Below are positions 15,030 to 29,687 of a stretch of 32,415 bases of DNA, in pieces. Origin of the DNA: an uncultured Holophagaceae bacterium (lineage in GTDB: Bacteria > Acidobacteriota > Holophagae > Holophagales > Holophagaceae); contig CAIMBM010000223.1 in NCBI GenBank assembly GCA_903839205.1, positions 1 through 32,415 of the forward strand, in the 5' to 3' direction. The notes beneath the pieces were generated by a model, which was not told the DNA's origin, searched no databases, and worked only from the letters and a program-made list of their open reading frames with translations. Made by a program: the position numbers and the translations under genes. Within the stretch, counting starts at the first letter, position 1. Each line of letters starts with the position of its first letter.

Positions 15030-15105
15030 GCCGCCTTAGCTCAGTTGGTAGAGCTCCAGCTTTGTAATCTGGAGGTCGCCGGTTCGATTCCGGCAGGCGG
15101 CTCCA
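15030..15105 (+). tRNA. tRNA-Thr (anticodon TGT), CCA encoded
   Basis: Cloverleaf: GCCGCCT/AGGCGGC acceptor, GCTC/GAGC D stem, anticodon loop TTTGTAA, GCCGG-TTCGATT-CCGGC T arm, TCCA 3' end. Confidence 0.96.
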
Positions 15106-15155: not shown

Positions 15156-15602
15156 TCAGCGGAATCCGTGACTTTGCAGGCACTCGGCGTACTGGCGGTC
15201 CATCACCTGGATGTGGGGAATGAGCCAGGTCAGCAGGAAGCCGGGCATGGCCTGGGAGCTGATCTCGCCCCGCTGCACCTTCTGGACCATGTCCTTGGCC
15301 TGCTGGATCAGGGCCGCATGTTCAGCGGCATGGGCCTCTCGCCCCTCAAACCCTACTTCCGTCATCACCCGCTCTTCGTGATCGAAATGGACCCAGGTTT
15401 CGTAGATCAGGGCCCCCATGAGGTTCTGGGCCAGGGCCCGGTCCTGCTTGTCCCGCAGGGTGGCGTGCACCTGGCCTATCAGGGCGGCAAGCCGCTGGTG
15501 TTCCTGATCGAAGGCCGTGACGCCGATGGCATGCTCCGCGCCGGACCACTCGAAGCAGGGGGCGTCGGTTTCGAATCTCGGTGTAGCAGGCACCATGGTC
15601 AT
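15156..15602 (-). CDS. bacteriohemerythrin
   Basis: FDQEHQRLAAL ... HFDHEERVM ... HAAEHAALI ... WLIPHIQVMDRQY iron-ligand pattern. Confidence 0.92.
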   Translation of the reverse strand: MTMVPATPRFETDAPCFEWSGAEHAIGVTAFDQEHQRLAALIGQVHATLRDKQDRALAQNLMGALIYETWVHFDHEERVMTEVGFEGREAHAAEHAALIQQAKDMVQKVQRGEISSQAMPGFLLTWLIPHIQVMDRQYAECLQSHGFR

Positions 15603-19682: not shown

Positions 19683-19793
19683 CCGGTCCGGACGCCCAGG
19701 CTCGTTCAATGGATGGAAGAGAAGGAGTTTATGACCTTCCCAACCACCCAAGGCCGGAGGTGAACTCCCGCCGATCCCACTAGGAGGTGAATC

Positions 19794-21857
19794 GTGCAAT
19801 GGAAATGGGGACGAATCGCAGCCATCGCCGGGGGTTTCGTCCTCCTGGTGGGGCTGCGGGCCACCGAGAAGGCCGCAGGGAGCCCACCTGCCGCACCGGT
19901 CCAGACCAGGACCGCCAAAGCCGAGGCGCCCCCCAAGACCACTCAGGCCAAGGCGGGATCCGTGGCGGAAGAGGAACTCAGCCCCCGGACGCTGGAGGGC
20001 TACGTGGAACAGGAGAAGGCCTTCTACGACTTCCTGAAGAAGAACCACCCGCTGTTCACCGACTACGAGAAGAATGGCCGGATCGTCGGCAAGTACCAGA
20101 TCAGCGACCGCGAGGAGGAATTCGTCGAGTTCGGTGGCGGCAAGGACTACGCGGCCCAGAACAACCGGCAGACCGCCATCACTTACCGGCTGGGGATGGA
20201 ATCCATCCTGGACCTTCCCAACAAGTTCGTGGGCGCCAAGAAGTGCGGGGAATGCCATCCGATGCAGTACGAGAAGTGGTCCCGCTCGCGGCACGCCATG
20301 GTGGTGCGTTTCCCTGACGAGATGGTGGAAATCCCGAACAGGGACCTCACCAAGGGCCTGTACGGCAGCCAGGCCGCCGTGCTGCCCCCCGGCATCACGG
20401 CGGATTCCGTGTTCGCCATCATCGGCACGCCCCGCACCAAGTACGGCTTCCTGGACAAGTGGCTCGTCCGCGGCACCTACCACATCGAGGGCGGCAACCT
20501 CAACGACCGGACGGGCACCCTCGTGGCCGGCGGCAACCAGTTCAGCCGGAGCTGGGCTGAATCCCTCACGCCCGAGGTCGCCAAGAAGATCGCGGCCTAT
20601 GTCCCGGGCTTTCCCACGACGCTGGCTGATTTCGGCGACCAGGGGTCCGGCGTCTGGGGGACCAACTCCTACGGGGCCAAGAACCGGAAGAACATGCTCT
20701 TCCAGCCCGCCAGTTCCTACTGCGAGGTCTGCCACTCCTTCAAGTTCGACTTCAAGAGCCAGGCGGAGCTCATGGCGGCCCTCGGCAAGCCCGAGGAACT
20801 GCGCAAACACACCATCAACAAGGGCATCACCTGCGAGGAATGCCACGGCGCCGGGGCTCACCTGATGGGCGCACGGGGGGCGGGCATGCCCTCCAACTGC
20901 GAGCGCTGCCACCAGCGCTTTGCCTGGAATGCAGATGAGGCCAAGAAGGATCCCAAACACGGTTTCTCTGCCTACTTCAAGGGCGGCTGCCCCTCCTGCG
21001 GCACCGAGGGCTCCCAGTCCTACTACACCAGCCACAAGGAGCACGGGATGAGCTGCGGGACCTGCCACGATCCCCATGAGGTGACCGCCAACGATTGGAA
21101 GGACCCCTATACGGTCCCGGCCCTGAAGAAACAGTGCGAGGACTGCCACAAGACCCAGGGCGAGTTCTTCGCCAACAACGAGATCCACGGCGGCAACCGC
21201 TGCACCAGCTGCCATATGCCGGTCATGGGCAGCTGCGAGAACTTTGTTGCCATCCAGTATCCGGACTACGGCGGCTTCGACACCCAGCGGGCCTCCCACA
21301 TCTGGAAGATCCTCGTCGACCCCGAGGCCAAGACCCTCAATCCCCCCGAGGGCAAGGACCGGAACTACAAGGGCGGCGCCTGGCGCCTCACGAAGAAGGA
21401 CGGGAAACCCTACATCGACCTGATGTGGTCCTGCGGCCGCACCAGCTGGGGCGATCCGGATCTCGCGCAGACGGGTGGATGCCACAGCCCCGCGCAGTCC
21501 TCCCAGCCCAAGGAACTGCTCTTCACGAGCCAGCGCATGATCTACGACAGGGTCATGACCTGGGAGAACCCGGTGAAGGCGGGGCTCGCCGAGGTGGAAA
21601 CCTCCCTCAAAAAGCTGGGCCCTATGCTCGCCAAGAGCCGGCTCGGGAAGGCCCAGAAGGCCCAGGTCCAGCTGATGGTCAACCAGGCCCGGGACATCGT
21701 GAAAGCCGTCAAGAAGGATGGCTCCTGGGGCGTCCACGCACCCACGTTCACGAAAGGGAAGCTGGATGAGGCGAAGGTGCTCGTCCAGGGCGCCCAGGCT
21801 ACTCTGCACGGGAACGTCAGGGCCTCCCTGCAGGCCGGGGGGGCGGACAAGGGATGA
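19794..21857 (+). CDS. mccA: MccA-like octaheme cytochrome c (putative heme-copper sulfite reductase)
   Basis: GTG start with perfect AGGAGGTGA SD. N-terminal signal/anchor. Seven CX2CH motifs (codons from 20244, 20722, 20832, 20898, 21054, 21135, 21201) plus CX15CH SCGRTSWGDPDLAQTGGCHS at 21432..21485. Confidence 0.85.
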   Translation: MQWKWGRIAAIAGGFVLLVGLRATEKAAGSPPAAPVQTRTAKAEAPPKTTQAKAGSVAEEELSPRTLEGYVEQEKAFYDFLKKNHPLFTDYEKNGRIVGKYQISDREEEFVEFGGGKDYAAQNNRQTAITYRLGMESILDLPNKFVGAKKCGECHPMQYEKWSRSRHAMVVRFPDEMVEIPNRDLTKGLYGSQAAVLPPGITADSVFAIIGTPRTKYGFLDKWLVRGTYHIEGGNLNDRTGTLVAGGNQFSRSWAESLTPEVAKKIAAYVPGFPTTLADFGDQGSGVWGTNSYGAKNRKNMLFQPASSYCEVCHSFKFDFKSQAELMAALGKPEELRKHTINKGITCEECHGAGAHLMGARGAGMPSNCERCHQRFAWNADEAKKDPKHGFSAYFKGGCPSCGTEGSQSYYTSHKEHGMSCGTCHDPHEVTANDWKDPYTVPALKKQCEDCHKTQGEFFANNEIHGGNRCTSCHMPVMGSCENFVAIQYPDYGGFDTQRASHIWKILVDPEAKTLNPPEGKDRNYKGGAWRLTKKDGKPYIDLMWSCGRTSWGDPDLAQTGGCHSPAQSSQPKELLFTSQRMIYDRVMTWENPVKAGLAEVETSLKKLGPMLAKSRLGKAQKAQVQLMVNQARDIVKAVKKDGSWGVHAPTFTKGKLDEAKVLVQGAQATLHGNVRASLQAGGADKG

Positions 21858-27313: not shown

Positions 27314-28516
27314 ATGACGGATGCGGAGGGAACGAGGCGCAGCGGGTTCCTGACGGTGCCCTTCGCCATCCTCTGCGCCTTCTACTTCCTGGTTTTCGCG
27401 GCGGGCTACCAGCTCTTCCCGGTGGTGCCCCTGCACCTGCGGGACCTGGGCGCGAGCCTCGCGGAGAGCGGCCGTTTCCAGACGGCCTTCATGCTGGGCT
27501 CAGGCCTCGGGTCGCTGTTCACGGGGCCCCTCGGCGACCGCCTGGGGCAGCGCCGGGTGCTGCGCATGGCCTCCCTGGTCCTGGTGGCGATCCTCGTGGC
27601 CTATGCCTTCCTGAAGGTGCGCTGGGTGTTCTACCTGCTGGCGCCCCTCCACGGCGTCCTCTGGTCGGCCCTCCGGACCGCCTCCATCGCCAAAGTGGGA
27701 AGCATCCTGCCCCTGGAGCACCGGGCCCAGGGCCTATCGCTCTTCGGTCTCACGGGGCCCGGCGGCGTGGCCGTGGGTCCACTGGTGGGCCTCTGGCTCA
27801 TGCCGCACCTGGGTTTCGCCTGGATGCTGATCCTGCTGGCGGGCGTCTTCGCGGTCCTGCATGGCCTCATCGGCGCCCTGCCCAAGGAAGCCCCCCGCGA
27901 GGTCGAAGTCGCGGTCCTGTTCCACTGGCCCGACCGGGCCGTGTGGGGGACGGTGGCCGTGATGACGCTCGTGGGCCTGGGCTTCGGCCCCATTCCCCCC
28001 TACAGCGCCCAGGAGGCGAAGGCACTGGGGATGGCCTGGCCTGCGGCTTTCCTCACCTGTTTCGCCCTGGGCATGATGGCCATCCGTGGCCTGCTGGCCC
28101 TGACGGGCATGGGACGGCGCCCGGTGAACCTGCTTCCATTCATGCTCTTCCTGGCCTCGGCAGGCTACGCCCTGCTGGCCTTCCTGCCCGGCGGCATGAG
28201 CCGTCACCTGCTGGCGGGGCTCATCTACGGCGCGGGCTACGGCATGGCGCACACCCTGCTCATCATGAACATCTTCGCCACCACGGCCCCCGATCGGGTC
28301 GGCGCCGCGGTGGGGGCCCTGTTCTTCGCCTTCGATGCGGCCACGGCCTTCGGGGCCCTGGGTCTGGGCTGGGCCATGGAGCACTTCGGGTTCCGCCGGG
28401 GCTGGGCCATCGGGGCTGTCCTCATGGCCTTTTCGATCCCCGTGGCACGCCGCATCGCCCGGAAGAGCACGGCCATAACCACCGGACCGGTCCCCTCTGG
28501 CATCCTCGAAGGATGA
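27314..28516 (+). CDS. MFS transporter (paralog 1)
   Basis: About 12 hydrophobic segments; FTGPLGDRLGQRR loop 2-3 motif. Confidence 0.88.
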   Translation: MTDAEGTRRSGFLTVPFAILCAFYFLVFAAGYQLFPVVPLHLRDLGASLAESGRFQTAFMLGSGLGSLFTGPLGDRLGQRRVLRMASLVLVAILVAYAFLKVRWVFYLLAPLHGVLWSALRTASIAKVGSILPLEHRAQGLSLFGLTGPGGVAVGPLVGLWLMPHLGFAWMLILLAGVFAVLHGLIGALPKEAPREVEVAVLFHWPDRAVWGTVAVMTLVGLGFGPIPPYSAQEAKALGMAWPAAFLTCFALGMMAIRGLLALTGMGRRPVNLLPFMLFLASAGYALLAFLPGGMSRHLLAGLIYGAGYGMAHTLLIMNIFATTAPDRVGAAVGALFFAFDAATAFGALGLGWAMEHFGFRRGWAIGAVLMAFSIPVARRIARKSTAITTGPVPSGILEG

Positions 28517-28541
28517 TTACGCAGCAGGAACGAAGTACCGC

Positions 28542-29687
28542 ATGAAGGAGCTTTCGATTCCCCGAGCCAGGCTCATGACGAAGCAGTTCGTGTTGGTGTG
28601 GTCACTCACCTTCGTCACCTTCTTCGCCGCGTTCCAACTTTTCCCCACGGTGCCCCTGCGCCTGCGGGAACTGGGCGCGAGCCTGGCGGAAAGCGGCCGT
28701 TTCATGAGCCTGTTCACCGCCGGCAGCGCCCTGGGGGCGCTCTTCACGGGCCCCCTGGGCGACCGGGTGGGACACCGCCGTCTGGTGGTCACAGCCGCGC
28801 TGCTCTATGCCCTCTTCCTGGGTGCCTACTCCCTGATGTCCCACCGCTGGGGATTCTACGTCCTGGCCATCCCCCACGGCATCGTCTGGTCGGGCCTGCT
28901 GACGGCCACCATGGCGTCACTGGCCCACGTACTGCCCGAGGACCGCCGCGCCGACGGCCTCAGCCTCTACGGCCTCGCCAGTCCCGGTGGCGTCATCGTG
29001 GGCCCGCTGCTGGGCCTATGGATCTTCGAGCGCTGGGGATTCGCTCCCATCGGCTGGTACCTGGCCCTGCTCTTCGTCCTGCTCGGAGCCCTGGCGACGA
29101 CGCTCCCCGTGGATCATCCCCATGGCCGGGCCGAGGGCTTCCGGTGGCCCGACGCCACGGTGGCCACGCCCTGTCTCATCCTGTTCTGCGTGGCCCTGGG
29201 CTACGGCGCCCTGGGCACCTACACGGCCCAGGAGGCCCTGGCCCTGGGGATGCGCCTGCCCTCGGCCTTCCTCTCCTCCATGGCCGTGGGCATGGTGATC
29301 ATGCGCCTGGCCATGCTGCGGCGCGGCTTCGGCCTGCGGCCCATCCGCAAGCTGCCGGGCATGCTGCTGGGAGCCGTCCTGGGCCTGGTCCTGCTGGCCG
29401 CCCTGCCCGGCGGCACCGTGCGCCACGTGGTGGCCGCCCTCCTCTACGGGGCTGGCTACAGCATGTTGCATACCCTCCTCAACGCGAAGCTCCTGGAATC
29501 CACGGATCCCAAGCGGCGCGGATCGGCCTTCGGCGCGCTGCTCTTCGCCTTCGACGCCGGCATCGGCCTCGGCAGCTTCAGCCTGGGCTGGGTCATCGGC
29601 CACCATGGCTACCGCCTGGGCTGGGCCCTGGGCGCCCTGGCCATGCTCGCGGCCCTGCCGCTGGCGTTGAGGCTGAGCCGGGACTGA
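28542..29687 (+). CDS. MFS transporter (paralog 2)
   Basis: FTGPLGDRVGHRR motif; strongly similar along its length to the preceding gene. Alternative ATG at 28575. Confidence 0.88.
   Translation: MKELSIPRARLMTKQFVLVWSLTFVTFFAAFQLFPTVPLRLRELGASLAESGRFMSLFTAGSALGALFTGPLGDRVGHRRLVVTAALLYALFLGAYSLMSHRWGFYVLAIPHGIVWSGLLTATMASLAHVLPEDRRADGLSLYGLASPGGVIVGPLLGLWIFERWGFAPIGWYLALLFVLLGALATTLPVDHPHGRAEGFRWPDATVATPCLILFCVALGYGALGTYTAQEALALGMRLPSAFLSSMAVGMVIMRLAMLRRGFGLRPIRKLPGMLLGAVLGLVLLAALPGGTVRHVVAALLYGAGYSMLHTLLNAKLLESTDPKRRGSAFGALLFAFDAGIGLGSFSLGWVIGHHGYRLGWALGALAMLAALPLALRLSRD

Follow-up and report, generated by a model that had tools for sequence, protein, structure and literature searches.

Does a multiheme cytochrome gene of an uncultured acidobacterium encode an octaheme sulfite reductase of the MccA type, and how could such an enzyme work in this host? 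The gene lies in what we call the window, the whole stretch of 32,415 nucleotides that was analysed (contig CAIMBM010000223.1), which belongs to a metagenome-assembled genome (MAG) of a Holophagaceae bacterium (Acidobacteriota; 85.5% complete), a soil or peat acidobacterium. An earlier note, made from the letters alone, had pointed to seven CX2CH motifs followed by C547-X15-C563-H564, had read these as a signature of MccA, and had held that coincidence was unlikely. The motifs are present as described in an open reading frame of 687 amino acids, and the features referred to below are the following, in coordinates of the window.

19782..19789, plus strand: ribosome-binding site AGGAGGTG, 5′ of the GTG start (read from the sequence)
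19794..21857, plus strand: mccA, homologue of the octaheme heme-copper sulfite reductase, 687 aa, seven CX2CH and one CX15CH (phmmer, motifs, alignments)
20244..21215, plus strand: stretch holding all seven CX2CH motifs (motif search; invariant in 13 sequences)
20244, 20721, 20832, 20898, 21054, 21135 and 21201, plus strand: codon starts of the CX2CH motifs (motif search)
20997..20999, plus strand: codon of C402 (position from the alignment; putative copper ligand)
21234..21236, plus strand: codon of C481 (position from the alignment; putative copper ligand)
21432..21485, plus strand: heme-8 attachment site CX15CH, CGRTSWGDPDLAQTGGCH (in register with CARTTWADKDQAEAKGCH of Wolinella succinogenes MccA)

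The frame opens with GTG, preceded by AGGAGGTG, and has a GC3 of 0.89, which is typical of real genes in this host. Judged by eye, the N-terminus reads as an export signal. The CX2CH motifs begin at residues 151, 310, 347, 369, 421, 448 and 470, the sole CX15CH is C547-C563-H564 with the codon of C547 at 21432, and the protein has three more cysteines outside the heme motifs, C399, C402 and C481. When 13 MccA proteins of Holophagaceae and Campylobacterota are aligned, none of the 24 heme-attachment residues varies, and on this conservation the CX15CH is not a product of chance, which bears out what had been said about coincidence.

In a phmmer search of the PDB (E up to 1) the single match was MccA from W. 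succinogenes, present there in two entries (4rkm), with 649 bits and an E-value of 9.8e-194 over residues 64-673 at about 50% identity, and a profile built from 13 relatives again retrieved only the 4rkm sequence, with 1267 bits. The two CX15CH sites, CGRTSWGDPDLAQTGGCH in the window and CARTTWADKDQAEAKGCH in W. succinogenes, pair without a gap, so the proposed MccA-type signature holds. Pfam and NCBIfam yielded no match specific to MccA and assigned the protein to generic multiheme families only. An AlphaFold model from the 13-sequence alignment reached a pLDDT of 35, with the C-terminal helices alone confident; helices of this kind have been described in the NrfA and MccA families (PMC6703420). 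The earlier note had itself named placement in the OTR, ONR or other clades, with the CX15CH out of register, as an outcome that would speak against its reading. No OTR, ONR or HAO chain matched at E up to 1, and given the score and register of the MccA match it is extremely improbable that the protein belongs to one of these families and carries its CX15CH by coincidence. The gene is confirmed as a full-length MccA homologue and as truly belonging to an enzyme family that was already known.

For the active site we relied on residues K208, Y285, R366, K393, C399, C495 and Y123 of W. succinogenes MccA, which were reportedly described by Hermann et al. 2015 (Nature 520:706); with the numbering shifted by a constant 12, all seven coincide with the expected residue type in the chain of 4rkm. 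C399 and C495 are reportedly the copper ligands, situated beside heme 2. The counterparts in the window protein are, in the same order, K216, Y293, R375, K396, C402, C481 and Y131, so that C402 aligns with C399 and C481 with C495 of W. succinogenes, and every one of them is invariant in the 13 MccA sequences. K216, Y293, R375 and K396 would, by this numbering, be the sulfite-pocket residues, and the two conserved cysteines suggest that the window protein may bind copper. The remaining cysteine, C399 of the window protein (20988-20990), lies three residues before C402 and occurs only in the host species and its closest relative; the other MccA sequences have H or G at this position.

The named records closest to the window protein come from Holophagaceae MAGs, the best of them, fen_302, at 93% identity. 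The gene was found in 6 of the 47 genomes of the host genus, and in a sample of 396 genomes from the phylum it was confined to this genus (E up to 1e-30). A genome scan with two N-terminal peptide patterns, which may miss other MccA hosts, gave further matches in Sulfurospirillum, in Campylobacter and in one MAG titled Proteobacteria; no plasmid record matched. Four other species of the genus have an intact frame with 77-93% identity, as expected of a gene that is being maintained. The literature searched, which was mainly open literature with subscription journals largely outside, yielded no report of MccA in Holophagaceae; what we found there treats siroheme enzymes, either Dsr or assimilatory. 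What is new is the host, a seldom described one, since the enzyme is already known, and a heme-copper sulfite reductase can now be placed in Holophagaceae.

The main unusual feature of the window gene is its solitary arrangement, with the usual helper genes missing. On its 5′ side are murJ and an Adhesin_E-like gene, on its 3′ side lipocalin and DinB genes on the opposite strand and then a hybrid histidine kinase gene, and a carboxyltransferase gene is also among the neighbors. Beside mccA we found neither mcc or sir partner genes (MccCD quinol dehydrogenase, CcsA1 or SirEFG) nor FKBP, 4Fe-4S, NrfD, ResB-CcsA, NosL, FtsX or ABC genes. Elsewhere in the window, a tRNA-Thr gene (anticodon TGT, 15030-15105) lies 3′ of accC, with a minus-strand gene for a hemerythrin-domain protein (15156-15602) after it, and two similar MFS transporter genes stand side by side at 27314-29687 in an apparent tandem duplication.

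In four Holophagaceae species (L012, L013, L014 and L061) an SCO-like CxxxC protein adjoins mccA; Pfam identified it in L012 and L014, and a genome search did so in G032, G030, G017 and G243. The SCO-like protein retains its CxxxC, but the histidine with which SCO proteins commonly bind copper seems to be replaced by VP, and a role as a thiol-reductase is therefore possible. NosL lies near mccA in two of these four species (L012 and L014), but its standing as an mccA-specific partner is weakened by the presence of the NosL-FtsX module in the mccA-negative genomes G002 and G033 as well. Neither an SCO-like gene nor NosL was found beside mccA in the window genome or in its nearest relative, nor did either genome give a NosL match.

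How would an enzyme encoded in this way obtain its hemes and its electrons? In W. succinogenes CcsA1 has been reported to be necessary for attachment of the CX15CH heme (PMC6976685). A search with CcsA1 of Sulfurospirillum diekertiae (L027) found ResB and CcsA as adjacent reading frames on contig C272 of the window genome, with no ResB-CcsA fusion of the CcsA1 kind, and a second CcsA-type frame (288 aa) lies on C261; at 85.5% completeness, absences from this MAG are provisional. As no dedicated CcsA1 was found, attachment of the CX15CH heme would probably fall to the general synthase of System II, ResB/CcsA. NrfD-type genes are present in the window genome away from mccA, one of them with a 4Fe-4S partner and Hmc/Hyb-like, and they also occur in mccA-negative genomes. 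Because no MccC or MccD genes adjoin mccA, the electron source would probably be periplasmic cytochromes or else a quinol dehydrogenase of the NrfD type encoded at an unlinked locus. We infer both the donor and the maturation route, and the full picture, namely a solitary MccA with neither a quinol dehydrogenase nor a CX15CH heme lyase of its own, which draws on general ResB/CcsA and a shared periplasmic cytochrome pool, we put forward tentatively, at rather less than even chances. If the window protein is active, it raises the question of whether attachment of a CX15CH heme needs a dedicated synthase at all, since the near-complete genome G243 carries mccA and only one ResB/CcsA pair in the CcsA1 search.

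The earlier note had further suggested that the bacterium may reduce sulfite at a periplasmic multiheme enzyme instead of through siroheme Dsr. This stands in so far as no DsrAB match was found in the window genome (85.5% complete), but siroheme is not dispensed with: the sole PF01077 gene codes for the hemoprotein of an assimilatory siroheme sulfite reductase and has a uroporphyrinogen-III methyltransferase gene as its neighbor. MccA is hence the only candidate dissimilatory sulfite reductase of this genome and not its sole sulfite reductase. On G000:C108 (L062) the assimilatory sulfite reductase gene has a gene for siroheme synthesis and one for a YeiH-like transporter as neighbors. From homology and residue conservation, we consider it very probable that the product of the window gene is MccA proper, namely an exported octaheme sulfite reductase with a heme 2/copper site that receives its electrons from another donor. 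The protein would be a periplasmic cytochrome c in which sulfite binds at heme 2 (the second CX2CH motif), adjoining copper held by C402 and C481, and is reduced to sulfide with six electrons; activity and direction of the reaction are predicted from the relatives.

Another reading is that mccA is decaying in this lineage, and that for want of CcsA1 and copper chaperones its product fails to mature to an active octaheme enzyme. The absence, in the window genome and its nearest relative, of the adjacent SCO-like gene and NosL that other species have would fit, and in a relative (L012:11054, also L003) TGA stands instead of TGC as the codon for the second cysteine in heme motif 3 (CEE*H), the rest of the frame being open. 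Selenocysteine was considered for this TGA and set aside, as no tRNA-Sec match above the family cut-off was found in the L012 genome; a TGC-to-TGA mutation or an assembly error explains it equally well. The window gene itself, however, is free of stops, lies behind a strong ribosome-binding site and combines high GC3 with fully conserved catalytic residues, and its sister at 93% identity has an intact frame, for which reason we find decay unlikely. The protein could also be MccA by descent and yet serve mainly in detoxification or as an electron sink, for sulfite or also for nitrite or hydroxylamine, and not as an energy-conserving terminal reductase, a reading compatible with its identity that differs in physiological role only. 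No quinol dehydrogenase genes are linked to it, its distribution in the genus is patchy, and an mccA-like gene is present in Sulfurospirillum arcachonense and S. barnesii, two species that reportedly make no use of sulfite as an electron acceptor (PMC4794192), so that the gene alone is no proof of sulfite respiration. On the other hand, respiratory electrons could arrive through unlinked NrfD modules or the periplasmic cytochrome pool, and the full conservation of active-site residues argues for sulfite as a continuing substrate. We give this role a substantial minority chance, and hold a working sulfite reductase of the periplasm, supplied with electrons by another donor, to be the most likely reading of the sequence.

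Among known systems, SirA of Shewanella oneidensis is described as belonging to the MccA family, with seven CX2CH and a CX12NKGCH, that is, C-X15-CH (PMC6976685); by this description it resembles the window protein in its motif set. Its maturation involves SirEFG and CcmI (System I), whereas the window genome has System II ResB/CcsA. The MccA proteins of Sulfurospirillum and Campylobacter (L015-L028) share the motifs at 44-50% identity. In S. diekertiae mccA is followed by genes for FKBP, 4Fe-4S, NrfD and the ResB-CcsA fusion (CcsA1), and further by NosL, FtsX and ABC genes, a cluster that the window does not have. Compared with W. succinogenes MccA (PDB 4rkm/4rkn), the window gene has no mccBCD or ccsA1 alongside, and the protein has a loop after heme 5 that is shorter by 17 residues (alignment columns 454-470) and an extra cysteine near the first copper ligand. 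The two are nonetheless homologous over their full length, with the seven CX2CH and the CX15CH in the same order, and both copper-ligand cysteines and the presumed sulfite-pocket residues are kept.
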